From Flavobacterium sp. J49 (GTDB taxonomy: Bacteria; Bacteroidota; Bacteroidia; Flavobacteriales; Flavobacteriaceae), in NCBI RefSeq assembly GCF_011742145.1, contig NZ_JAAQQU010000104.1, positions 825,938-889,937 of the forward strand: a stretch of 64,000 bases of DNA, written 5' to 3'. Within the stretch, counting starts at the first letter, position 1, and each line of letters begins with the position of its first letter. Below, in pieces: positions 19,205-53,896 of this stretch. The translations under genes and the position numbers were made by a program. The notes below the pieces were generated by a model. It searched no databases and was not told where the DNA came from. It saw only the letters and a list, made by a program, of their open reading frames with translations.

Positions 19205-19287
19205 TGGCTTCCCGCTTAGCCCTGACAGGAGTGTAAATCCTTTTGAAAAAAGATTGCAACGGATGGCAGGAAAATGGACTGCAAAGT
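19205..19287 (+). repeat. Interspersed TAGCCC repeat, copy A (possible structured RNA element)
   Basis: Begins TAGCCCTGACAGGAGTGTAA and ends in AATGGACTGCAAAG. It aligns clearly with minus-strand copy B at 49634-49721, sharing GATTGCAAC and TGGACTGCAAA, and more loosely with copy C at 54954. It lies in the gap between the nuclease gene and etfA. It resembles, from memory, a repeat abundant in flavobacterial intergenic DNA and possibly the Flavo-1 RNA motif. Confidence 0.55.
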
Positions 19288-44594: not shown

Positions 44595-44633
44595 AACTAT
44601 ATTTTAGTTTAATATTAATTTTTAGTGAAAAAA

Positions 44634-44715
44634 GAGGAGATTGCCACGAAAGCTAAAGGAGAGTTTCTGCTTTAGCATTTTTTAACGAGGTTGCAATCAG
44701 TTCAAATTTTTCCTC
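44634..44715 (-). promoter_or_regulatory. Structured 5' leader of metK (possible regulatory RNA)
   Basis: The metK leader (about 130 nt) can fold as a nested structure. GAGG/CCTC (44712-44715 with 44634-44637) and GATTGC/GCAATC (44693-44698 with 44639-44644) enclose a hairpin GCTAAAG/CTTTAGC (44670-44676 with 44652-44658). Short CC..CG/CG..GG pairing extends the second helix. I cannot assign it to a known riboswitch class. Confidence 0.4.
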
Positions 44716-44729
44716 TCATTTTTCGGTTG

Positions 44730-44759
44730 CAAATGTATAAAGACTATTTAGAATACAAA
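44730..44759 (-). promoter_or_regulatory. Promoter of metK
   Basis: Minus strand TTTG (44759-44756), an 18 nt spacer and TACATTTG (44737-44730), an exact match to TAnnTTTG. Confidence 0.7.
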
Positions 44760-44865
44760 AAACTATTTTGCTTTTTTTGTTTTTTTTATGATACTTCCAA
44801 AATTCTAAATACGTAGTATTTAAATATATATACACCCACTTCAAATGTTAAATTTTCAGATTTTG

Positions 44866-44897
44866 TTTGGTGGATTGAAAAAACATTCAGAAGTTTG
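44866..44897 (+). promoter_or_regulatory. Candidate promoter of the metY leader
   Basis: TTTG (44866-44869), a 20 nt spacer, then GAAGTTTG (44890-44897), which keeps TTTG and differs at the first T. Transcription would start near 44903, about 20 nt before leader peptide 1. No other promoter-like sequence is apparent before metY. Confidence 0.45.
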
Positions 44898-44921
44898 TCT
44901 CATCAAATAACAACTGGAAAA

Positions 44922-44990
44922 ATGAAATTTACAATTTGTCATATGTGTCGCATGATGTGGAAAAATTCCGCAGAGGACGCTATTGCATAA
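44922..44990 (+). CDS. Met/Cys-rich leader peptide 1 (22 aa) of the metY operon
   Basis: ATG 44922, stop TAA 44988-44990. The core TICHMCRMMW places Cys at 6 and 9 and Met at 8, 11 and 12, so five of seven codons (6-12) call for Met or Cys. The rest is NSAEDAIA. The GCAGAGG of codons 17-19 (44970-44976) pairs perfectly with CCTCTGC (45023-45029), the 5' arm of the terminator just downstream. A ribosome at the stop codon should cover it and a ribosome stalled at codons 11-12 should leave it free. I read this as a regulatory leader peptide whose product need not have a function of its own. Confidence 0.75.
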   Translation: MKFTICHMCRMMWKNSAEDAIA

Positions 44991-45049
44991 TTTTAAATTT
45001 TTTTAAAATATATTCAATCAAACCTCTGCTAACCGCAGGGGTTTTTTTA
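44970..45049 (+). promoter_or_regulatory. Transcription attenuator 1: antiterminator and terminator
   Basis: Terminator: AACCTCTGC (45021-45029), loop TAACC, GCAGGGGTT (45035-45043), then a T-run; 9 bp with one G-U. Antiterminator: GCAGAGG (44970-44976) with CCTCTGC (45023-45029), 7 bp Watson-Crick, five of them G-C. The two structures share the 5' terminator arm and exclude each other. The 5' strand lies inside leader peptide 1. Confidence 0.75.
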
Positions 45050-45060
45050 TTTAGAACAAA

Positions 45061-45089
45061 TTGTCACCCTGAGTGTAGTCGAAGGGTCA
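45061..45089. repeat. Short interspersed repeat between the two attenuators
   Basis: GTCACCCTGAGTGTAGTCGA followed by AGGGTC. It resembles a very common intergenic repeat with CCCTGAG...CGAAGGG ends, with a small ACCCT/AGGGT pairing. It separates terminator 1 from leader peptide 2. Confidence 0.55.
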
Positions 45090-45115
45090 ATCCAAAACAA
45101 AAAGAAGTAAAAACA

Positions 45116-45214
45116 ATGAAAGTAACAGCAAAAAATATGATGATGGACCGTATGATGCACATGATGATGTGTTGTTGTATTGGCATATCCTGTTACCAAA
45201 AGCGAAAGACGTAA
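45116..45214 (+). CDS. Met/Cys-rich leader peptide 2 (32 aa) of the metY operon
   Basis: ATG 45116, stop TAA 45212-45214. The core NMMMDRMMHMMMCCCIGISC contains eight Met in residues 8-18, then three consecutive Cys (19-21) and Cys26; the end is YQKRKT. TTACCAAAAG (45193-45202, within codons 26-29) is the exact complement of CTTTTGGTAA (45244-45253) in the following terminator. A ribosome finishing at the stop would mask 45193-45202, and one stalled on codons 16-21 would leave it exposed. This is classical attenuation geometry. A Met/Cys metal-binding microprotein is a possible alternative, but the RNA pairing favours a leader. Confidence 0.85.
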   Translation: MKVTAKNMMMDRMMHMMMCCCIGISCYQKRKT

Positions 45215-45276
45215 TCGAAGTTTATATTTATACTCTAGAAGTCCTTTTGGTAAGCCATCCAAAAGGACTTTTTTTA
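45193..45276 (+). promoter_or_regulatory. Transcription attenuator 2: antiterminator and terminator directly before metY
   Basis: Terminator: AAGTCCTTTTGG (45239-45250), 8 nt loop, CCAAAAGGACTT (45259-45270), then T-run. The 12-bp stem is perfect. Antiterminator: TTACCAAAAG (45193-45202) with CTTTTGGTAA (45244-45253), a perfect 10 bp. They overlap on 45244-45250, so only one can form. The metY ATG lies 35 nt after the T-run. Confidence 0.88.
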
Positions 45277-45310
45277 TTCCAAAAATCTAATAATCTAAAA
45301 ATCAGAAAAA

Positions 45311-46603
45311 ATGAGCACACAAAAATTCGCAACCAATGCCTTGCACGCCGGACACGACGTTACTAAAAACGCAGGAACCAGAGCCGTTCCAATCTACCAA
45401 ACAACTTCGTATGTATTCAACAATTCTGACCATGCCGCTAATTTATTTGGCCTGGCCGAAGCCGGATTCATCTACACCCGTTTGAACAATCCAACCAATG
45501 ACATTTTAGAACAACGCTTAGCCGCACTCGAAGGCGGCATCGGAGCAGTAGTTACCGCTTCTGGAACTTCTGCTATCGCCACCAGTTTATTGGTTTTACT
45601 AAAAGCCGGTGACCACATCGTAGCTTCTAACAGCCTTTACGGCGGAACTTACAATTTGTTGAGCGTAACCTTGCCAAGATTGGGCATCACAACGACTTTT
45701 GTAGATCCGTCAAACCCAGAAAACTTTACCAAAGCCGCCCAAGAAAATACCAGAGCGTTTTTCGCTGAAAGTTTGGGTAACCCAAAATTAGACGTACTCG
45801 ATTTGAAAGCGATTTCGGCAGCAGCCAAAGCATTTAAAGTGCCTTTCATCGTCGACAATACAGTGGCTACGCCTTATTTGTTGAACCCAATTCAATATGG
45901 TGCCGACATAGTCATTCACTCCTTAACCAAATACATCACCGGAAACGGAACGTCACTTGGCGGTGTAATCATCGATGCCGGAAACTTTGATTGGAGCAAC
46001 GGAAAATTCCCTGAATTCACCGAACCGTCTGCCGGTTACCACGGTTTGAAATATTACGAAGCATTGGGCGCAGCGTCATTTATTGCTAAAGTAAGAATCG
46101 AAGGATTGCGTGATTTTGGGGCAGCTTTAAGTCCGTTCAACGCGTTCCAAACGATTCAAGGATTGGAAACTTTGGAAATCAGAATTAAAAAACATAGCGA
46201 AAATGCTTTGGCTTTAGCCCAATGGTTGCAAGCACAGGAAGTAGTAGCATGGGTAAATTATCCGGGATTGGAAACTTCTAAATACAAAACTCTAGCCGAT
46301 GAATATTTACCGGAAGGCAAAAGCGGCATCGTAACTTTCGGTTTAAAAGGCGGATTTGAAGCAGCCAAGAAAGTAGCTGATGAGACCAAATTATTCTCGT
46401 TACTAGCTAACATTGGAGATACCAAATCACTAATTATCCATCCGGCGAGTACAACGCATCAGCAATTGTCCGACGCAGAGCAAGAAGCCACCGGAGTAAC
46501 CAAAGACTTAATCCGTTTGTCCGTTGGTTTAGAAAACATCGCCGATTTGAAAGCCGATTTGAAAGAAGCCTTTGTAAAAATTAAAACCCCACAAACCGTA
46601 TAA
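45311..46603 (+). CDS. metY: O-acetylhomoserine aminocarboxypropyltransferase (O-acetylhomoserine sulfhydrylase)
   Basis: 430 aa, Cys/Met-metabolism PLP enzyme. LHAGHDVTKNAGTRAVPIYQ at the N-terminus and the PLP Lys in VIHSLTKYITGNGTSLGG (about 205-222) are visible. The length and the insert typical of the MetY branch separate it from the shorter gamma-synthases. It joins O-acetylhomoserine and sulfide to homocysteine. It is the first structural gene of metY-osmC-metX-hom, behind two attenuators. Confidence 0.95.
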   Translation: MSTQKFATNALHAGHDVTKNAGTRAVPIYQTTSYVFNNSDHAANLFGLAEAGFIYTRLNNPTNDILEQRLAALEGGIGAVVTASGTSAIATSLLVLLKAGDHIVASNSLYGGTYNLLSVTLPRLGITTTFVDPSNPENFTKAAQENTRAFFAESLGNPKLDVLDLKAISAAAKAFKVPFIVDNTVATPYLLNPIQYGADIVIHSLTKYITGNGTSLGGVIIDAGNFDWSNGKFPEFTEPSAGYHGLKYYEALGAASFIAKVRIEGLRDFGAALSPFNAFQTIQGLETLEIRIKKHSENALALAQWLQAQEVVAWVNYPGLETSKYKTLADEYLPEGKSGIVTFGLKGGFEAAKKVADETKLFSLLANIGDTKSLIIHPASTTHQQLSDAEQEATGVTKDLIRLSVGLENIADLKADLKEAFVKIKTPQTV

Positions 46604-46604
46604 C

Positions 46605-47063
46605 ATGAGCACCAAAACCGTAAACATAGTTGGCTATGCCAAAGAAAGCAATCAGTTTGTTGTCAAAGCACAAAACTTTGATGTCAGAATCAGTAAGAAC
46701 GAGCAATTTCCTGAATTGGAAGGGCCAAGTCCGCTAGAGTATGTCTTGGCTGGTTATGCCGGTTGCATCAACGCCGTCGGAAAATTGGTAGCCAAAGAAC
46801 AAGGCATCGTTTTAAAATCACTTCAGGTAGAAATCTCGGGAACCCTAAGTTTAGACAAATACCAGGGAAAGATTAGCGATGAAAGAGCCGGATTTAAAAC
46901 CATAGAAGTAACGGTTAGACCTACTTCCGACGCGACCTTGGAACAATTGAAAGACTGGTTAATCGAAGTGGAAAACCGTTGTCCCATTCAGGACAACTTA
47001 CTCCGTCCGACCCCGGTGTCGGTAGTATTATTCAAAGAGTTTCTAACTACGGAAGCCGCTTAG
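46605..47063 (+). CDS. OsmC family redox protein
   Basis: 152 aa OsmC/Ohr fold: GPSPLEYVLAGYAGCINAVG with the first reactive Cys and ENRCPIQDNLLRPTPV with the second, plus the central helix. Members reduce organic hydroperoxides or act as thiol proteins. It begins 2 nt after the metY stop, so it is co-translated with sulfhydrylase. A role in protecting or handling reduced sulfur is possible but only inferred from position. Confidence 0.92.
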   Translation: MSTKTVNIVGYAKESNQFVVKAQNFDVRISKNEQFPELEGPSPLEYVLAGYAGCINAVGKLVAKEQGIVLKSLQVEISGTLSLDKYQGKISDERAGFKTIEVTVRPTSDATLEQLKDWLIEVENRCPIQDNLLRPTPVSVVLFKEFLTTEAA

Positions 47064-47206: not shown

Positions 47207-48208
47207 ATGAAAAAGTTGGAAAAAATAGATTTGTTCAATTTTAGTTTGAAAAACGGAAAACATCGCCCTTATATTCCATTGTTTTATCAAACTTTTGGCC
47301 AGCCCATTGGGTCAGCGCCTGTCGTGGTAGTCAATCACGCTTTGACAGGAAACTCCAATGTCACCGGAGAAAACGGCTGGTGGAATGATTTGATTGGTGA
47401 TGGGAAAATTATCGATACCCATTATTTCACAGTGATTGCTTTCAATATTCCCGGAAATGGTTATGATGACAATTTTGGCAATTTGATTTCAAATTATAAA
47501 GATTTTACCATTCGTGACATCGCACGCATTTTTTGGGAAGGTTTAGATTTCCTGAAAGTAGAACAAGTTTTCGCCATAATCGGCGGAAGTTTAGGTGGCG
47601 CAGTAGCCTGGGAAATGGCAGTATTGAAACCGAATACAGTTCAAAATTTAATCCCGATAGCCACCGATTGGAAAGCCACGGATTGGGTCATCGCCAATGT
47701 CTTAATCCAAGACCAAGTGCTGAACAATTCTGATGATCCGATTGCCGACGCGAGATTGCACGCCATGTTATTGTACCGAACACCTCAATCCATAAACCAA
47801 CGTTTTCAAAGAACTAAATTCAATGATTCTTCTGTTTTTCAAATTGAGAATTGGCTGGCCAATCACGGCGTAAAACTCAAAAACCGCTTTCGGTTATCGG
47901 CTTACAAATTGATGAACCATTTGCTCAAAACCAATGATATCACTCGAGAAAGAAATGATTTTTTGGCTGTAGCCAAAGAAATTCAAGCTAACATTCACGT
48001 TGTTGCAGTAGATACCGATTACTTTTTCATCCCGGACGAAAACCGTGAAACGGTTGAAAGCTTAAAACCAATCAAAGAAAATACATTCTATCATGAAATA
48101 AAATCCATCCACGGACACGACGCTTTTTTAATCGAATTCGAACAATTAGCCCAAATTTTAGGGCCTATTTTTAACCAACAAAAACAACAAACATATGTCA
48201 GCGCTTAG
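47207..48208 (+). CDS. metX: Homoserine O-acetyltransferase (MetX-type alpha/beta hydrolase)
   Basis: 333 aa. The nucleophile elbow is IGGSLGGAVAWEM (Ser about 128), with a catalytic Asp in VDTDYFFIP (about 271) and His in SIHGHDAFLIEF (about 304). The oxyanion region VVNHALTGNSNVTG is present. It acylates homoserine. Acetyl rather than succinyl is assumed because the partner is MetY. Its last 14 nt overlap the hom start, indicating coupling. Confidence 0.94.
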   Translation: MKKLEKIDLFNFSLKNGKHRPYIPLFYQTFGQPIGSAPVVVVNHALTGNSNVTGENGWWNDLIGDGKIIDTHYFTVIAFNIPGNGYDDNFGNLISNYKDFTIRDIARIFWEGLDFLKVEQVFAIIGGSLGGAVAWEMAVLKPNTVQNLIPIATDWKATDWVIANVLIQDQVLNNSDDPIADARLHAMLLYRTPQSINQRFQRTKFNDSSVFQIENWLANHGVKLKNRFRLSAYKLMNHLLKTNDITRERNDFLAVAKEIQANIHVVAVDTDYFFIPDENRETVESLKPIKENTFYHEIKSIHGHDAFLIEFEQLAQILGPIFNQQKQQTYVSA

Positions 48209-49295
48209 AATCAATATAGTCCTTTTTGGTATCGGCAATGTCGGTAGCACTTTAATAAACCAAGTGATTGAAAGTCAAAAATTCTTCCTCGAAAAAAGAA
48301 ACATCGACCTGAGATTTCCCATCATCACCAATTCTACTTTGGCCTTCTTCGAAAAAGACGGTCTCAAAAACCAATGGGAAGCCAATTTCGCCCAATCCGC
48401 CATTCCGTTCCGAATTGAAGACATCATCGAATATGTTCAAGAACAACAATTAGAAAACCTGATTGCCGTGGATGCAACAGCCAGTCAAGACATCATCAAA
48501 AATTACATTCCGCTAATCCAAAACGGTTTCAACATTGTGGCAGCCAATAAAAAAGCCAATACGTTACACACCGATTTCTACAAAGAACTGAGAAGAAATC
48601 TCAAAAAATACGACAAAACCTTTTTATACGAAACCAATGTCGGTGCCGGTTTGCCGGTCGTTCAAACGATAAACGATTTACACTTTTCAGGCGAAGAAAT
48701 CACTAAAATCCGTGGGGTATTCTCGGGTTCGTTGAGTTATATCTTCAACCGATTTTCTTCCGAAGAACTACCGTTTTCCAAAATCTTACTCGATGCAGAG
48801 AAGAATGGTTACACCGAACCCGATTCTCGAGATGACTTATCAGGTCACGATGTGGCCAGAAAATTGTTGATTCTCGCTCGTGAAGTCGAACAAGAATTTG
48901 AGTTTTCCGATATCAAAATCGAATCCCTTTTGCTCCCTAATTTAAATGAAAAAAGCCCTAAATCGGAATACGCAGTTAACAAACAGTTGTTTGACAAGCC
49001 CTTTCAAATCGCCAAAATTACTCAGGCCGATAACCATGCCTTGCGCTATGTAGGCGAATTGGATGTCAAGACTAAGCAATTGGAAGTCAAACTGATTTCA
49101 GTTCCCAAAAGTTCTGCTCTAGGCCAACTCAAAGGCGCCGATAATCTGATTGAAATTTATACCCAATCGTATGGCGAAATCCCAATCGTCATTCAAGGCG
49201 CCGGAGCCGGAAAACAAGTTACGGCTCGTGGCGTTTTGACTGATATTCTCAAAGTCGCCGAGAAAATTAAAATTAAAGAAGCGGTTTGGTTATAA
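48195..49295 (+). CDS. Homoserine dehydrogenase (monofunctional, ThrA C-terminal type)
   Basis: 366 aa. The NAD(P)-binding motif is NIVLFGIGNVGSTLI (about 7-21), with VAANKKANTL and catalytic-domain motifs FLYETNVGAGLPVVQTI, GVFSGSLSYIFNRF and GYTEPDSRDDLSGHDVARKL. It lacks the aspartokinase domain seen in ThrA/MetL. It reduces aspartate semialdehyde to homoserine, feeding MetX in the same operon. A terminator follows at 49351. Confidence 0.94.
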   Translation: MSALRINIVLFGIGNVGSTLINQVIESQKFFLEKRNIDLRFPIITNSTLAFFEKDGLKNQWEANFAQSAIPFRIEDIIEYVQEQQLENLIAVDATASQDIIKNYIPLIQNGFNIVAANKKANTLHTDFYKELRRNLKKYDKTFLYETNVGAGLPVVQTINDLHFSGEEITKIRGVFSGSLSYIFNRFSSEELPFSKILLDAEKNGYTEPDSRDDLSGHDVARKLLILAREVEQEFEFSDIKIESLLLPNLNEKSPKSEYAVNKQLFDKPFQIAKITQADNHALRYVGELDVKTKQLEVKLISVPKSSALGQLKGADNLIEIYTQSYGEIPIVIQGAGAGKQVTARGVLTDILKVAEKIKIKEAVWL

Positions 49296-49429: not shown

Positions 49430-49452
49430 CACCGTTCATAAACTTATTGTTC

Positions 49453-49583
49453 GTTATCACGAAAGCTGGAGGGAATAGACCCGTTGAAAGCTTAGCAACC
49501 CTTTGCCAAAAGAAGGTGCTACATTCTATCTCAATTTATTGGGAGCAGATAACCCCGAGAATTCTTCTCACTTTCACGATAAC
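49453..49583 (+). promoter_or_regulatory. SAM-I (S-box) riboswitch upstream of metH
   Basis: P1 is closed by GTTATC (49453-49458) and GATAAC (49578-49583), extended across an internal loop by GAAAG/CTTTC. Core S-box sequences are present: GGAGGGAATAGACCC, GTTGAAAGCTTAGCAACC and GGTGCTACATTC. SAM-I aptamers bind SAM and lower expression when it is abundant. I see no intrinsic terminator or T-run between 49583 and the metH ATG (49801), so the expression platform is unclear. Confidence 0.92.
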
Positions 49584-49633: not shown

Positions 49634-49721
49634 TGGAGCGAATGGCTTGCGCATTTTTTGCAGTCCATATTCCCGCTTTGCGTTGCAATCTCTTCGAGGA
49701 TTTCCACTACAATCGGGGCTA
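49634..49721 (-). repeat. Interspersed TAGCCC repeat, copy B
   Basis: On the minus strand it begins TAGCCCCGATTGTAGTGGAA and includes GATTGCAAC, GCGGGAATATGGACTGCAAA and the end GGAGCG. It lies inside the metH leader, antisense to it. Closely similar to copy A (19205) and related to copy C (54954). Adjacent 49609-49635 has TGTCATTCTGACG...GAAGAATCT, another common repeat. Confidence 0.55.
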
Positions 49722-49759
49722 AAAAGTAAAATGTATTGATTTTTTGGAGTCAGTAGTCT

Positions 49760-49800: not shown

Positions 49801-50790
49801 ATGTCAAAAATTCAAGACGCCATCAAAGAAAGAATCCTCGTCCTAGACGGCGCCATGGGAACCATGTTGCAACGCAACAACTTCTCCGAAGAAGATTTCC
49901 GTGGCGAGCGTTTCAAAGATTTTCCACATCCGCTGAAGGGCAACAACGATTTGCTTTCCATCACCCAACCCGAAGCCGTAAAACAGGTTCATCGCCTTTA
50001 TTTTCAAGCCGGTGCCGATATCGTGGAAACCAACACTTTCTCAGGTACGACCATCGGAATGGCCGATTACCACTTAGAAGATTTGGTTTACGAACTCAAC
50101 TATCAATCCGCCAAAATCGCCCGAGAAGTTGCTGACGAATTCAACGACAAGCCGCGTTTCGTTGCCGGTTCTATCGGACCAACAAACAGAACGGCAAGTA
50201 TGTCACCGGATGTAAACGACCCGGGATTTCGCGCCGTAACATTTGACGATTTACGCATCGCCTACAAACAACAAGTGGAAGCCTTAATTGATGGTGGTTG
50301 TGATGTTTTATTGGTAGAAACTATTTTTGATACACTTAACGCCAAAGCCGCTTTATTCACCATCGAAGAAGTAAAAGAAGAACGCAATCTCGATATTCCC
50401 GTAATGGTTTCAGGAACGATTACCGATGCGTCAGGAAGAACACTTTCCGGACAAACCGTAGAAGCATTTTTGATTTCGATACAGCACATCGATTTGCTAA
50501 GTGTTGGATTCAATTGCGCTTTAGGTGCCGACCAATTGAAACCTTATTTAAAAAGATTGGCACACAATACGACTTTAAACATTTCCGCACATCCCAATGC
50601 CGGTTTGCCTAATGCTTTTGGGCAATACGACCAAACACCAACGGAAATGCAAGCCTTAATAAAAGAATATTTGCAAGACAATTTAGTAAACATCATTGGC
50701 GGTTGTTGCGGCACAACACCGGAACACATCAAAGCCATCGCCGAGGTAGCTAAAGAATTTCAACCTAGAAAGTTGTCGGTTGTCGGTTGA
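49801..50790 (+). CDS. metH: Methionine synthase part 1: homocysteine/zinc-binding domain
   Basis: 329 aa, matching the N-terminal homocysteine S-methyltransferase domain of MetH. Motifs: ILVLDGAMGTMLQRN, ETNTFSGTTIGMADY, SVGFNCALGADQL (zinc Cys) and NIIGGCCGTTPEHI (zinc Cys pair). It activates homocysteine as the methyl acceptor. The other MetH domains are encoded 395 bp downstream, so the enzyme must work as two chains. Its C-terminus (KLSVVG) runs into heptamer array 2, which supplies the last codons and the stop. Confidence 0.94.
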   Translation: MSKIQDAIKERILVLDGAMGTMLQRNNFSEEDFRGERFKDFPHPLKGNNDLLSITQPEAVKQVHRLYFQAGADIVETNTFSGTTIGMADYHLEDLVYELNYQSAKIAREVADEFNDKPRFVAGSIGPTNRTASMSPDVNDPGFRAVTFDDLRIAYKQQVEALIDGGCDVLLVETIFDTLNAKAALFTIEEVKEERNLDIPVMVSGTITDASGRTLSGQTVEAFLISIQHIDLLSVGFNCALGADQLKPYLKRLAHNTTLNISAHPNAGLPNAFGQYDQTPTEMQALIKEYLQDNLVNIIGGCCGTTPEHIKAIAEVAKEFQPRKLSVVG

Positions 50791-50804
50791 TGGTTGTCGG
50801 TTGT
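50772..50804. repeat. Heptanucleotide array 2 (GTTGTCG, 4 units), inverted relative to array 3
   Basis: GTTGTCG, GTTGTCG, GTTGATG, GTTGTCG then GTTGT. It is the reverse complement of the unit at 49760, 51203 and 53261. It overlaps the 3' end of metH part 1 and lies 21 bp before the four-helix-bundle ORF. Confidence 0.85.
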
Positions 50805-50825
50805 AAAATAAAGAACAATAAATTT

Positions 50826-51188
50826 ATGAATAAAGAATATACAGATTTGGAAGTTTGGCAGGAAAGTAGGAAACTCACCAATCAAGTTTACGAATTGACA
50901 ACATCATTTCCAAAAGAGGAACAGTTTGGTTTGACCAATCAAATCAGACGAGCAGTAGTTTCTGTTACTTCCAATATTGCTGAGGGTTGTGGTAGACAGA
51001 CAGCTAAAGATACAATCAATTTTTTACACATTTCAAGAGGTTCTTTATACGAATTGGAAACACAATGTTATGTTGCTTTAGATCAGCAGTACATGACCAA
51101 GGAACAATTTCAAAGTATTCATAACAGTATTCAAGTTTGCAAGCGATTGTTAAACGGTTTTATCAATTATTATCGAAAATTATCATGA
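50826..51188 (+). CDS. Four-helix-bundle (23S rRNA IVS / S23-like) protein
   Basis: 120 aa from ATG 50826. Family pattern: [19 protein letters not shown] at the N-terminus, the loop [19 protein letters not shown] (about 51-69) and [17 protein letters not shown]. These small proteins are encoded in rRNA intervening sequences and elsewhere, and relatives (Avd) accompany retroelements. The function is unknown. It is not a methionine gene. Inverted heptamer arrays flank it (array 2 on the left; array 3 begins 14 bp after its stop), and its stop TGA overlaps the metH part 2 ATG (ATGA). This suggests an inserted element. Confidence 0.9.
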
Positions 51189-53896
51189 GCACAGTAGATT
51201 TGCCGACAACCGACAACCGACAACCGACAACTAAATATTTAAAATTATCCGGATTAGAACCGCTAATCGTCACGCCTGAAAGTAATTTCATCAACGTAGG
51301 CGAACGCACCAACGTAACCGGTTCGCGTAAATTCCTTCGATTAATCAAAGAAGAAAAGTACGAAGAAGCCCTCGATATCGCCCGAAACCAAGTGGAAGGC
51401 GGTGCGCAAATCATCGACATCAACATGGACGAAGGAATGCTCGATGGAGTTTACGCCATGACCAAATTCCTAAACCTAATCGCTGCCGAACCCGATATCG
51501 CCCGAGTTCCGGTAATGATTGATAGTTCCAAATGGGAAATCATCGAAGCCGGTTTGAAAGTCGTGCAAGGAAAAGGTGTTGTAAACTCTATTTCCCTAAA
51601 AGAAGGTGCAGCCGCTTTTATCCATCATGCCAAATTGATCAAAAGATACGGCGCAGCAGTAATCGTAATGGCTTTCGACGAAGATGGTCAGGCCGATACT
51701 TATGAAAGGCGTATCGAAATCTGTAAACGTTCGTATGATATTTTAGTGAATGAAGTGCATTTCCCGGCAGAAGATATCATCTTTGACCCGAATATTTTCC
51801 CGGTGGCAACGGGTATGGAAGAGCACAAATTAAACGCATTAGACTTCTTCCGAGCGACCAAATGGATACGTGAAAACTTGCCTTATGCCGGCGTTTCCGG
51901 TGGTGTGAGTAACGTTTCGTTTTCGTTTCGTGGGAATGACAAAGTGCGCGAAGCAATGCATTCGGCGTTCTTATACCACGCGATTAAAAACGGCATGACG
52001 ATGGGCATTGTAAATCCGGAAATGCTCGAGATTTACGATGAAATCGACCCCATTTTGTTGGAACATGTAGAAGATGTGTTACTCAACCGAAGAGAAGACG
52101 CCACTGAGAGATTGTTGGATCTAGCTGAAAGTTTTAAAGGCGATTTCAAAGCCAATGAAAAAGCGGTTCAGGAATGGCGAAACGGTTCGGTGCAAGAAAG
52201 ATTAACCCATTCGCTAGTCAAAGGAATTGACGAATTTATAGAAATAGATGTCGAAGAAGCCCGTCAATTAGCCGGAAAACCGATTGAAGTCATCGAAGTC
52301 AATTTGATGGCCGGAATGAATGTCGTAGGCGATTTGTTCGGAAGCGGTAAGATGTTCTTGCCGCAAGTAGTCAAATCAGCGCGTGTGATGAAGAAAGCCG
52401 TAGCCTATTTGTTGCCTTATATAGAAGCTTCGAAAGACGGAAAATCTTCCTCAGCCGGAAAAGTCTTAATGGCAACGGTTAAAGGAGATGTACATGACAT
52501 TGGGAAAAATATAGTAGCGGTAGTTTTGGGTTGTAACAACTTTGAAATTATCGATTTGGGTGTCATGGTACCACCCGAAAAAATCATTGAAGCTGCCGTT
52601 CGAGAGAATGTAGATATCATTGGTTTAAGCGGATTGATTACGCCATCGTTAGACGAAATGGTGTATTTGGCCAAGGAAATGGACAAACTCAACATCAAAA
52701 TTCCGGTAATGATTGGCGGCGCTACGACTTCAAGAGCGCATACCGCGGTGAAAATTGCGCCCGAATATAAAGAAACGGTTGTCCATGTAAACGATGCGTC
52801 GCGTGCCGTAACGGTGGCAAGCAATTTGTTGCAAGCAGAAACCAAAGTAGAATACGCTAAAACCGTTCGGGCAGAGTATGACCAACTTCGTGAAGGCTAT
52901 TTAAATCGAAGCAGAGACAAAAATTACCATTCGATTGAAGCTGCGCGTAAAAACAAATTACAATTGGATTGGAGTAATTTTAGTCCGGTAAAACCCAATT
53001 TTATCGGAACCAAAACCATTGAAGTTGAATTGTCAGAACTGGTTGATTTTATCGACTGGACACCATTTTTCAGTTCATGGGAATTGTTCGGGAAATACCC
53101 GGCAATTTTAACGGATGAAGTAGTGGGTGAACAAGCCACTGCTTTATTTGCCGATGCTCAAAAAATGCTAAACCAAATCGTTTCCGAAAAGTGGTTAACC
53201 GCCAAAGGAATTCTCGGAATATTCCCTGCGAATACTATTAACGATGATGACATTTTGGTACAACCGACAACCGACAACCGACAACCGACAACTTTTTTAA
53301 CTTTAAGACAACAATCCCAAAAAACCGTCGGCGCACCCAACATAGCCTTAGCCGATTTCGTAGCGCCCAAAGACAGCGGAAAACAAGATTATATCGGTTG
53401 TTTTTGTGTAACGACCGGATTTGGTGTAGATGAAAAAGCAGCCGAGTTCGAAAAACAATTAGACGATTACAACTCGATTTTAGTCAAAGCCTTAGGCGAT
53501 AGGTTAGCTGAAGCTTTTGCAGAATATTTACACTTAAAAGTGCGCAAAGAAATTTGGGGTTATGCTTCGGATGAAAGTTTAACGAATCAGGATTTGATTG
53601 ACGAAGAATACAAAGGCATACGTCCGGCACCGGGTTATCCTGCGTGTCCGGATCATTTGGAGAAACCAACGATTTGGAAACTTTTAAACGTAGAACAGGA
53701 AATAGGCGTAAAGCTGACCGAAAGCATGGCGATGTGGCCGGCTTCTTCGGTTTCGGGCTATTATTTTGCGAACCCGAAAAGTAAGTATTTCGGATTAGGA
53801 AAAATCAAAGAAGACCAAGTCATAGATTACGCGAAAAGAAGAGGAATTTCAACGGAACAAGCCACTAAGTGGTTAAGTCCAAATATAGCAGATTAA
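51185..53896 (+). CDS. metH: Methionine synthase part 2: folate, cobalamin and SAM-activation domains
   Basis: 903 aa from ATG 51185 (a longer reading upstream lacks homology). The pterin-binding domain (about 20-310) has [18 protein letters not shown]. The B12 cap and Rossmann domain has GDVHDIGKN with cobalamin-ligand His about 437. The C-terminal activation domain has [15 protein letters not shown] (about 813). It transfers methyl from 5-methyl-THF via cobalamin to homocysteine bound by part 1. Residues about 7-16 and 693-703 ([10 protein letters not shown]) are encoded by heptamer arrays 3 and 4 and are not part of the family fold. Confidence 0.95.
51203..51231. repeat. Heptanucleotide array 3 (CCGACAA, 4 units) inside the metH part 2 N-terminus
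   Basis: Four exact CCGACAA units plus C, translated as [10 protein letters not shown]. Opposite orientation to array 2, so the pair brackets the four-helix-bundle ORF. Confidence 0.9.
53261..53292. repeat. Heptanucleotide array 4 (CAACCGA, 4 units) inside metH part 2 coding sequence
   Basis: Four exact units plus CAAC, read in frame as [11 protein letters not shown] around residues 693-703. As 7 is not a multiple of 3, gain or loss of one unit would shift the reading frame and remove the activation domain. Confidence 0.9.

Follow-up and report, generated by a model that had tools for sequence, protein, structure and literature searches.

The metY operon of Flavobacterium sp. J49 is very probably controlled by two tandem ribosome-mediated transcription attenuators, as judged from sequence and comparison. 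In the present study, two complete attenuator-like units were observed on the + strand upstream of metY in the window (the whole 64,000-nucleotide stretch of DNA that was analysed), and the element described in an earlier note on this DNA is the second of this tandem pair. The comparison with relatives establishes, at the level of sequence, the two ORFs and their richness in Met, three conserved helices, the spacing, the genes with which the units are associated and the exclusion of SAM-I. The regulated gene is metY, whose product makes homocysteine, the methionine precursor, as the earlier note had stated and as the TIGR01326 score listed below bears out.

Anatomy of the two units before metY

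The features of the two units and the first gene behind them, in window coordinates, are as follows.

44890..44897, + strand: putative promoter -7-like element, GAAGTTTG, to be compared with the Bacteroidetes consensus TAnnTTTG
44922..44990, + strand: leader peptide 1 ORF, MKFTICHMCRMMWKNSAEDAIA, one of 67 distinct leader-1 peptides
44956..44972, + strand: leader 1 helix 1:2, TGTGG AAAAATT CCGCA, which covers the start of segment 2
44970..44976, + strand: leader 1 segment 2, GCAGAGG, antiterminator 5' strand, complementary to 45023-45029
45020..45048, + strand: predicted terminator 1, AAACCTCTGC TAACC GCAGGGGTTT plus T-run, whose 5' arm 45023-45029 is segment 3
45116..45214, + strand: leader peptide 2 ORF, reading MKVTAKNMMMDRMMHMMMCCCIGISCYQKRKT, 32 codons plus stop, one of 74 distinct leader-2 peptides
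45122..45128, + strand: leader 2 segment 1, GTAACAG, pairing with CTGTTAC at 45190-45196 (helix 1:2)
45193..45202, + strand: leader 2 segment 2, antiterminator 5' strand, TTACCAAAAG, exact reverse complement over 10 nt of CTTTTGGTAA at 45244-45253 (segment 3)
45239..45275, + strand: predicted terminator 2, a perfect 12-bp stem AAGTCCTTTTGG-TAAGCCAT-CCAAAAGGACTT at 45239-45270, then a T-run to 45275
45311..46603, + strand: metY, O-acetylhomoserine sulfhydrylase, TIGR01326 (OAH/OAS sulfhydrylase), 638 bits, cut-off 495

Unit 1 (44922-45048) lies upstream of unit 2 and follows the same logic, and segment 3 of unit 2 (45244-45253) lies within terminator 2. Leader 2 contains eight Met codons and three Cys in a row, and no other of the 474 ORFs that start with ATG and span 12-60 codons on either strand of the window has as many internal Met plus Cys (12); a minus-strand ORF with 9 comes second. 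The coordinates given in the earlier note, its 32-codon ORF with eight Met and three Cys, its perfect 12-bp terminator and the 10-nt complement to the terminator's 5' arm were all exact upon direct checking. Its description of the unit with Met/Cys runs stands as anatomy and is refined in its scope: the unit is half of a tandem pair, in which Met is constant and Cys lineage-variable, and which replaces SAM-I.

The elements expected of a ribosome-mediated attenuator were recognized in both units. A run of control codons occurs in leaders 1 and 2, a predicted intrinsic terminator lies between the ORF and the first structural gene in each unit, and a conserved antiterminator 2:3 would exclude the terminator 3:4. 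A protecting helix 1:2, not universal among relatives, is present in both leaders, and the spacing is such that a stall would free segment 2 and a ribosome at the stop codon would cover it. Two complete attenuators are thus found in one leader, which is the arrangement of a tandem attenuator. The region 44922-45310 has no Rfam match over the gathering score, including SAM-I and SAM-II, and matches at lax thresholds are far under these scores (e.g. Phe_leader, 22 bits vs 55); a known Rfam family is ruled out for the leader region by this absence, and Rfam annotation therefore misses the element. No T-box was present among the 17 Rfam matches up to E 5 in 44600-45400.

The Bacteroidetes promoter -7 consensus is quoted in PMC7366714 as TAnnTTTG. 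The string TTTG is observed 15-40 nt upstream of the leader-1 start in 62 of 67 relatives, and an exact TAnnTTTG within 60 nt upstream of it in 34 of the 67, the window's own sequence not being among them. An inverted-repeat-like sequence, CACCCTGAGTGTAGTCGAAGGGT, is located between the units at 45065-45087 and looks like a dispersed repeat.

Conservation of codons, spacing and helices

The metY loci of relatives were gathered, including 80 named contigs, and Met/Cys-rich leader ORFs with terminators after them were observed in 47 of the 80 named loci. By the mechanical leader criterion L086 would be added to these, but it was excluded on visual inspection; together with L076, whose Met/Cys ORF also satisfies the criterion, it was counted as leaderless, and both carry SAM-I. 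Altogether, 163 metY loci with 140 distinct upstream regions yielded 167 leader/terminator rows, from which 16 were removed by eye as spurious terminator/ORF pairings, four as belonging to other families (L152-L154) and six as peptide repeats. The 141 rows left come from 94 loci and comprise 67 distinct peptides for leader 1 and 74 for leader 2. The Met share was 18.4% in leader 1 and 21.4% in leader 2, compared with 1.5% in 548 further short ORFs from those upstream regions (control ORFs), a contrast that is partly by construction, since leader ORFs were selected with a floor of three internal Met plus Cys, which is far below their usual content. The Cys share was 8.6% and 15.0%, respectively, compared with 2.9% in the control ORFs, and none of the 548 control ORFs had at least five Met in the last 32 residues.

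At least one internal Met is found in all 141 leaders, and Cys is lacking in 9 of 67 leader-1 peptides and 1 of 74 leader-2 peptides. The leader 2 of distant loci within the same genus (L148-L151) carries 8-10 internal Met and at most one Cys. Met is evidently the constant element, and the Cys codons are lineage-dependent. The earlier note had made its proposal depend on conservation of the Met/Cys codons and of two helices in relatives, and the Met codons and alternative helices are indeed kept across Flavobacterium, Gillisia, Christiangramia/Gramella, Salinimicrobium, Zunongwangia, Kordia and further genera. Counting the distinct rows, 47 of the 94 loci show both units (L002-L004, L006, L073, L099 and L129-L133 among others), and some relatives have one unit only; since upstream sequence was scanned over 800 nt, an absent unit may be located farther away. 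In F. limi (L065) both units were observed within 700 nt, and in F. aquidurense (L052) leader 2 was observed. In L013, L014, L015, L054 and L060, a short Cys/Arg ORF of the MKIAIYNPRRCCRMCS type occupies the place of leader 2 without a terminator, and it is perhaps a decayed or translation-level version.

The placement of the codons is equally regular. A Met codon lies at least 14 nt upstream of segment 2 in 140 of the 141 leaders, in line with the claim of the earlier note that the spacing fits ribosome-mediated attenuation. A value cited in PMC3641672 puts the ribosome's footprint at 12-15 nt from the P site, and on this basis the Met codons evidently stand where a stall-and-release switch on Met would need them. 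Codons touching or following segment 2 account for 11 of 702 Met codons and 58 of 309 leader-2 Cys codons; in other words, some leader-2 Cys codons form part of the presumed antiterminator strand. The median distance from the end of segment 2 to the end of the stop codon is 15 nt in leader 1 and 5.5 nt in leader 2, so a ribosome at the stop codon would cover segment 2 wholly or partly.

For leader 2, the helices were evaluated in an alignment of 44 of the 74 sequences (A5), chosen by hand and excluding variants whose segment 2 coincides with the stop codon or lies beyond it (L021, L025, L028, L030 and L035, for example). Terminator 2 is paired in 99.8% of cells, and 8 of its 12 pairs are changed on both sides. 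The antiterminator 2:3 is paired in 84.0% of cells, compared with at most 60.7% when slid, and helix 1:2 in 70.5%, compared with at most 49.7%; helix 1:2 is missing or weak in many relatives and is not universal. Covariation in the antiterminator is modest, with two-sided change in 3 of 10 pairs, which was reached by 56 of 500 shuffles. When slid by -2, the antiterminator has more cells with two-sided change (17 vs 5) and far fewer paired cells, and helix 1:2 slid by -3 has 33 such cells compared with 34 in the real position, with 46.2% of cells paired. Since slid versions rival the real helices in two-sided changes, the percentage paired is the stronger evidence for 2:3 and 1:2 of leader 2. 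Using 20 leader-2 loci, RNAalifold found the terminator and helix 1:2 unaided.

For leader 1, a hand-chosen alignment of 52 of the 67 sequences (A4) contains two frame types misaligned by one column, and per-sequence tests were therefore used rather than pair counts. RNAalifold reported the terminator only for 20 leader-1 loci, with two-sided change in 5 of 10 terminator-1 stem pairs, and helix 1:2 was not reported for these loci. The 1:2 hairpin folds in the same place in 64 of 67 sequences, with p<=0.05 against mononucleotide shuffles in 47 of 67, and compensated versions occur. The pairing of each leader's own segments 2 and 3 reached p<=0.05 against dinucleotide shuffles in 45 of 67 leader-1 and 50 of 74 leader-2 sequences and was individually non-significant in 22 and 24, respectively (46 of 141). 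The mean duplex energy with the own terminator was -12.8 for leader 1 and -12.9 for leader 2, compared with -9.8 and -10.8 with the terminators of other loci.

Segments 2 and 3 of leader 1 change jointly, as in GCAGAGG/CCTCTGC, GCAGCG/CGCTGC, TGTGGG/CCCACA, GCAAGGGC/GCCCTTGC and GCGAAGGC/GCCTTTGC. Some relatives translate the RNA string GCAGAG as SAE and others, in another frame, as PQR or PQS, which points to selection on the RNA rather than on the peptide. The peptides evidently drift while helices 1:2, 2:3 and 3:4 stay, partly via compensatory change. A conserved functional peptide was ruled out, as peptide positions and frames drift and the RNA pairing is kept. Tryptophan, considered as a leader-1 signal on account of a frequent MMW, was also ruled out: the UGG lies within the 1:2 hairpin, where it is swapped for CGG, CAGG or GTGTA with matching partners, so the frequent Trp codon would be a structural element of that hairpin.

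Operon context and exchange with SAM-I

The genes that follow metY in the window are listed below.

46605..47063, + strand: OsmC-like gene, next in the operon, PF02566, 62.9 bits, cut-off 27.5
47207..48208, + strand: metX-like homoserine O-acyltransferase, TIGR01392, E 1e-56, with 192 bits, well below the cut-off of 500
48195..49295, + strand: homoserine dehydrogenase, best match the homoserine dehydrogenase end of PRK09436, 379 bits, under the cut-off of 726

Upstream of the units and divergent from them lies metK with a SAM-II riboswitch (44662-44721, - strand), and a SAM-I riboswitch at 49451-49555 (+ strand) precedes metH, not metY. Together with the leaders, three kinds of sulfur-amino-acid RNA control are thus gathered within 5 kb. 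The metH gene (49801-53896) is split into ORFs at 49801-50790 and 51137-53896, and between them lies a 133-codon protein of the 23S rRNA-intervening-sequence type (50787-51188; PF05635, 138.9 bits, cut-off 33.8). Two matches to Flavo-1 RNA, whose function is unknown, were also observed, one between SAM-I and metH (49665-49724, - strand) and one at 19214-19277 (+ strand).

Covariance models of the two leaders were searched against 299 genomes of the family. The leader-2 model (R1) gave 19 matches in 18 genomes, of which 15 precede metY (including the window's own), one a metX homologue (L136) and one an OsmC-like gene (L139); the matches L143 and L144 look false and were rejected. The leader-1 model (R2) gave 25 matches in 24 genomes, with 21 before metY, two before metX homologues (L161, L182) and one unclear (L176); L183 was rejected as false. 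The matches represent a minority of the family (18/299 genomes for leader 2 and 24/299 for leader 1). The metX homologues behind the leaders share 48% (L136), 58% (L161) and 54% (L182) identity with the window's metX-like gene, and the gene in L139 is related to the window's OsmC-like gene (25% identity, E 2e-12), having no Pfam match itself. Within the window's genome, R1 has one strong match (E 7.9e-24, the next being 6e-4), as does R2 (4.2e-17, then 0.024). No convincing second element of this kind was found in that genome, no leader with a like terminator being apparent at the seven weaker loci inspected.

At the named loci, SAM-I is located upstream on the metY strand in 32 of the 33 leaderless cases (1.36 kb away in L085), the exception being L090, with only 182 nt of upstream sequence. 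SAM-I precedes metY in none of 46 named loci with leaders (L077 falling outside the scan), and any SAM-I found there was downstream of metY. In a second locus set, which may overlap the first in species, SAM-I was present in 8 of 8 leaderless loci and in 0 of 12 with leaders. Leaders and SAM-I thus appear to exclude each other at the named metY loci, the leaders taking the place of SAM-I. A MetY tree of the 80 named loci requires a minimum of four changes between the leader and SAM-I states, and well-supported branches force only one; a repeated exchange is therefore suggested only.

Outside the family but within the order, metY is preceded by a Met-rich ORF and a terminator in 4 of the 12 genomes with upstream sequence (G061, G087, G092, G512), none with SAM-I. 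No Met-rich leader was found before metY in G068, G074, G081, G085, G398, G408, G469 and G497; among the leaderless genomes scanned for SAM-I, it is present in G469 and G497 and absent in G074, G398 and G408. At the level of the class, a Met leader was found before metY in 0 of 10 loci, and SAM-I in 8 of 10. Short ORFs ending in a Cys run precede metY in 6 of these 10 loci from other families of the class (L219, L220, L221, L223, L225, L226), e.g. MMCCCCCCM in L219, and no terminator was called after them; the gene start in L221 is approximate. L228, from another family of the order, has a poly-Cys ORF before metY with a terminator-like hairpin. A SAM-I upstream of the poly-Cys ORF was recognized in L219, L223, L225, L226 and L228, but none in L220 or L221. 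A Cys-sensing uORF combined with SAM sensing is a possible reading of this arrangement.

Proposed mechanism, rival readings and known systems

Herein, we infer from this architecture that both ORFs are translated, that ribosomes stall and transcripts terminate in the cell, and that the units respond to Met/Cys supply. RNA polymerase would start just before leader 1, and one ribosome would translate leader 1 and another then leader 2. When Met-tRNA (in the window's lineage, Cys-tRNA too) is charged, the ribosome would reach the stop codon and cover segment 2, segments 3 and 4 would pair to form the terminator, and transcription would end. When Met-tRNA is scarce, the ribosome would stall on Met (or Cys) codons at least 14 nt before segment 2, which would then be free to pair with segment 3, and the polymerase would continue into metY. 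With no ribosome, helix 1:2 would hold segment 2, making termination the default. Both units need read-through, so two in series should tighten repression; the serial arrangement should give less basal expression and a steeper response. Translation also starts with Met, and Met starvation would lower the charging of initiator tRNA too, working against a Met attenuator.

Attenuation might be the right class and the signal mainly cysteine, with the Met runs secondary, which we consider unlikely. Cys runs occur in the window's leader and in many relatives, and 6 of 10 loci of other families have a poly-Cys short ORF upstream of metY. Metabolism offers a further argument: the best serine acetyltransferase (cysE) match in the window's genome has E 3.2e-24, and a full-length cystathionine beta-synthase-like gene scores 490 bits, just under the model cut-off of 510, so Cys may come from the homocysteine made by MetY. 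The curated cut-offs were passed in none of 35 genomes for either cysE or beta-synthase; a cysE match with E<1e-40 occurs in 28 of the 35 and is absent in the window's genome, G021, G013, G277, G279, G349 and G350. However, Cys-rich leaders also occur alongside a strong cysE match among these 35 genomes. Moreover, the universal internal Met (141/141 leaders), the leaders without Cys (9/67 leader-1, 1/74 leader-2) and the Met-rich, nearly Cys-free leader 2 of L148-L151 argue for Met, and the 58 of 309 leader-2 Cys codons that touch or follow segment 2 lie where a stall could not help.

Nascent-chain arrest, in which the peptides would sense SAM or methionine via the ribosome tunnel rather than by codon-specific tRNA charging, would also account for Met- and Cys-rich leaders ahead of a methionine gene. 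Arrest peptides exist in other systems and usually need a defined sequence, but no residue string is conserved throughout the leaders, Met residues vary in position, and the RNA persists where the C-terminal part switches frame, which makes this explanation very unlikely. Similar observations bear on the suggestion that the ORFs encode real small Met/Cys-rich proteins, e.g. for metal binding, and that the terminators merely end an upstream transcript. Small ORFs are conserved, and Met/Cys-rich peptides can bind copper, but the peptides differ widely in length, in the spacing of Met and in their C-termini, complementarity to the terminator is maintained in the segment that codes for the C-terminus, and the leaders accompany metY or its operon, where SAM-I replaces them; the suggestion is extremely improbable. 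Short ORFs and hairpins are abundant in AT-rich genomes, and a chance arrangement in one genome might be invoked, but its probability is negligible: the leader-2 ORF is first of the 474 short ORFs in the window and is conserved in dozens of relatives, and chance is ruled out by this ranking, the 548 control ORFs and the comparison with those relatives.

With tandem attenuators as the preferred reading, we lean slightly towards a broader hypothesis for the Flavobacteriales. Control of homocysteine synthesis would have moved, at the same place, between a SAM riboswitch and tandem tRNA-Met attenuators with tRNA-Cys as a lineage-specific second input, and no Met-codon attenuators would have been described before this pair, which would act as a switch of two stages in series answering to one signal. 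Elsewhere in the Bacteroidia, a poly-Cys short ORF comes after SAM-I, which would make Cys supply a second input to metY of greater age. The regulators best known from methionine genes are SAM riboswitches, T-boxes and protein repressors; conservation of a Met-codon attenuator suggests that methionine can be sensed by the ribosome itself. SAM-I at the same place and gene in sister genera offers a natural side-by-side comparison of end-product (SAM) sensing and tRNA-charging sensing. The metY attenuators would also imply close coupling of transcription and translation in Bacteroidota, a group in which at least F. johnsoniae has no Shine-Dalgarno sites (PMC6847099).

Ribosome-mediated leader-peptide attenuators are known for operons of the trp, his, leu, thr, phe and ilv type. 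The metY units resemble these classical systems in having an ORF with a codon run, helices 1:2, 2:3 and 3:4, and an intrinsic terminator before a biosynthetic gene, but differ in their Met codons (with Cys in many lineages), two complete serial units, occurrence in Bacteroidota and replacement of SAM-I. SAM-I and SAM-II riboswitches bind SAM directly. SAM-I (RF00162) and SAM-II (RF01726) serve the same pathway as the metY leaders, and SAM-I stands in the same place before metY in sister genera, whereas no Rfam model exceeds its gathering score in the leaders, which should sense tRNA charging. Full-text searches of open-licence PubMed Central papers turned up no Met-codon leader attenuator.

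Among described systems, a trp-type ribosome-mediated attenuator is treated in PMC3641672, as is Salmonella mgtCBR, where tandem attenuators with two short ORFs sense ATP and proline and which its authors call singular. Like the metY units, mgtCBR has two short ORFs in one leader, one of which senses a charged tRNA; its units respond to different signals and, as described there, are without intrinsic-terminator-like structures, whereas both metY units are Met-rich and both have predicted intrinsic terminators (PMC3641672). Mycobacterial polycysteine short ORFs act as attenuators upstream of cysteine genes (Canestrari 2020, cited in PMC13236596). They share with the metY leaders the use of Cys-codon runs in attenuation, but the title of Canestrari 2020 calls them leaderless and PMC13236596 speaks of translation attenuation, with no mention of Met runs in either. 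In Flavobacterium psychrophilum, of the same genus as the window, a 2021 transcriptome gave strong clues for leader-peptide attenuation upstream of amino-acid operons (PMC9723704); "methionine" occurs 0 times in its main text, and its supplementary table may overlap with the metY leaders. Taken together, the comparison strongly supports the view that the metY units are real and conserved and that they represent a classical mechanism with new features.
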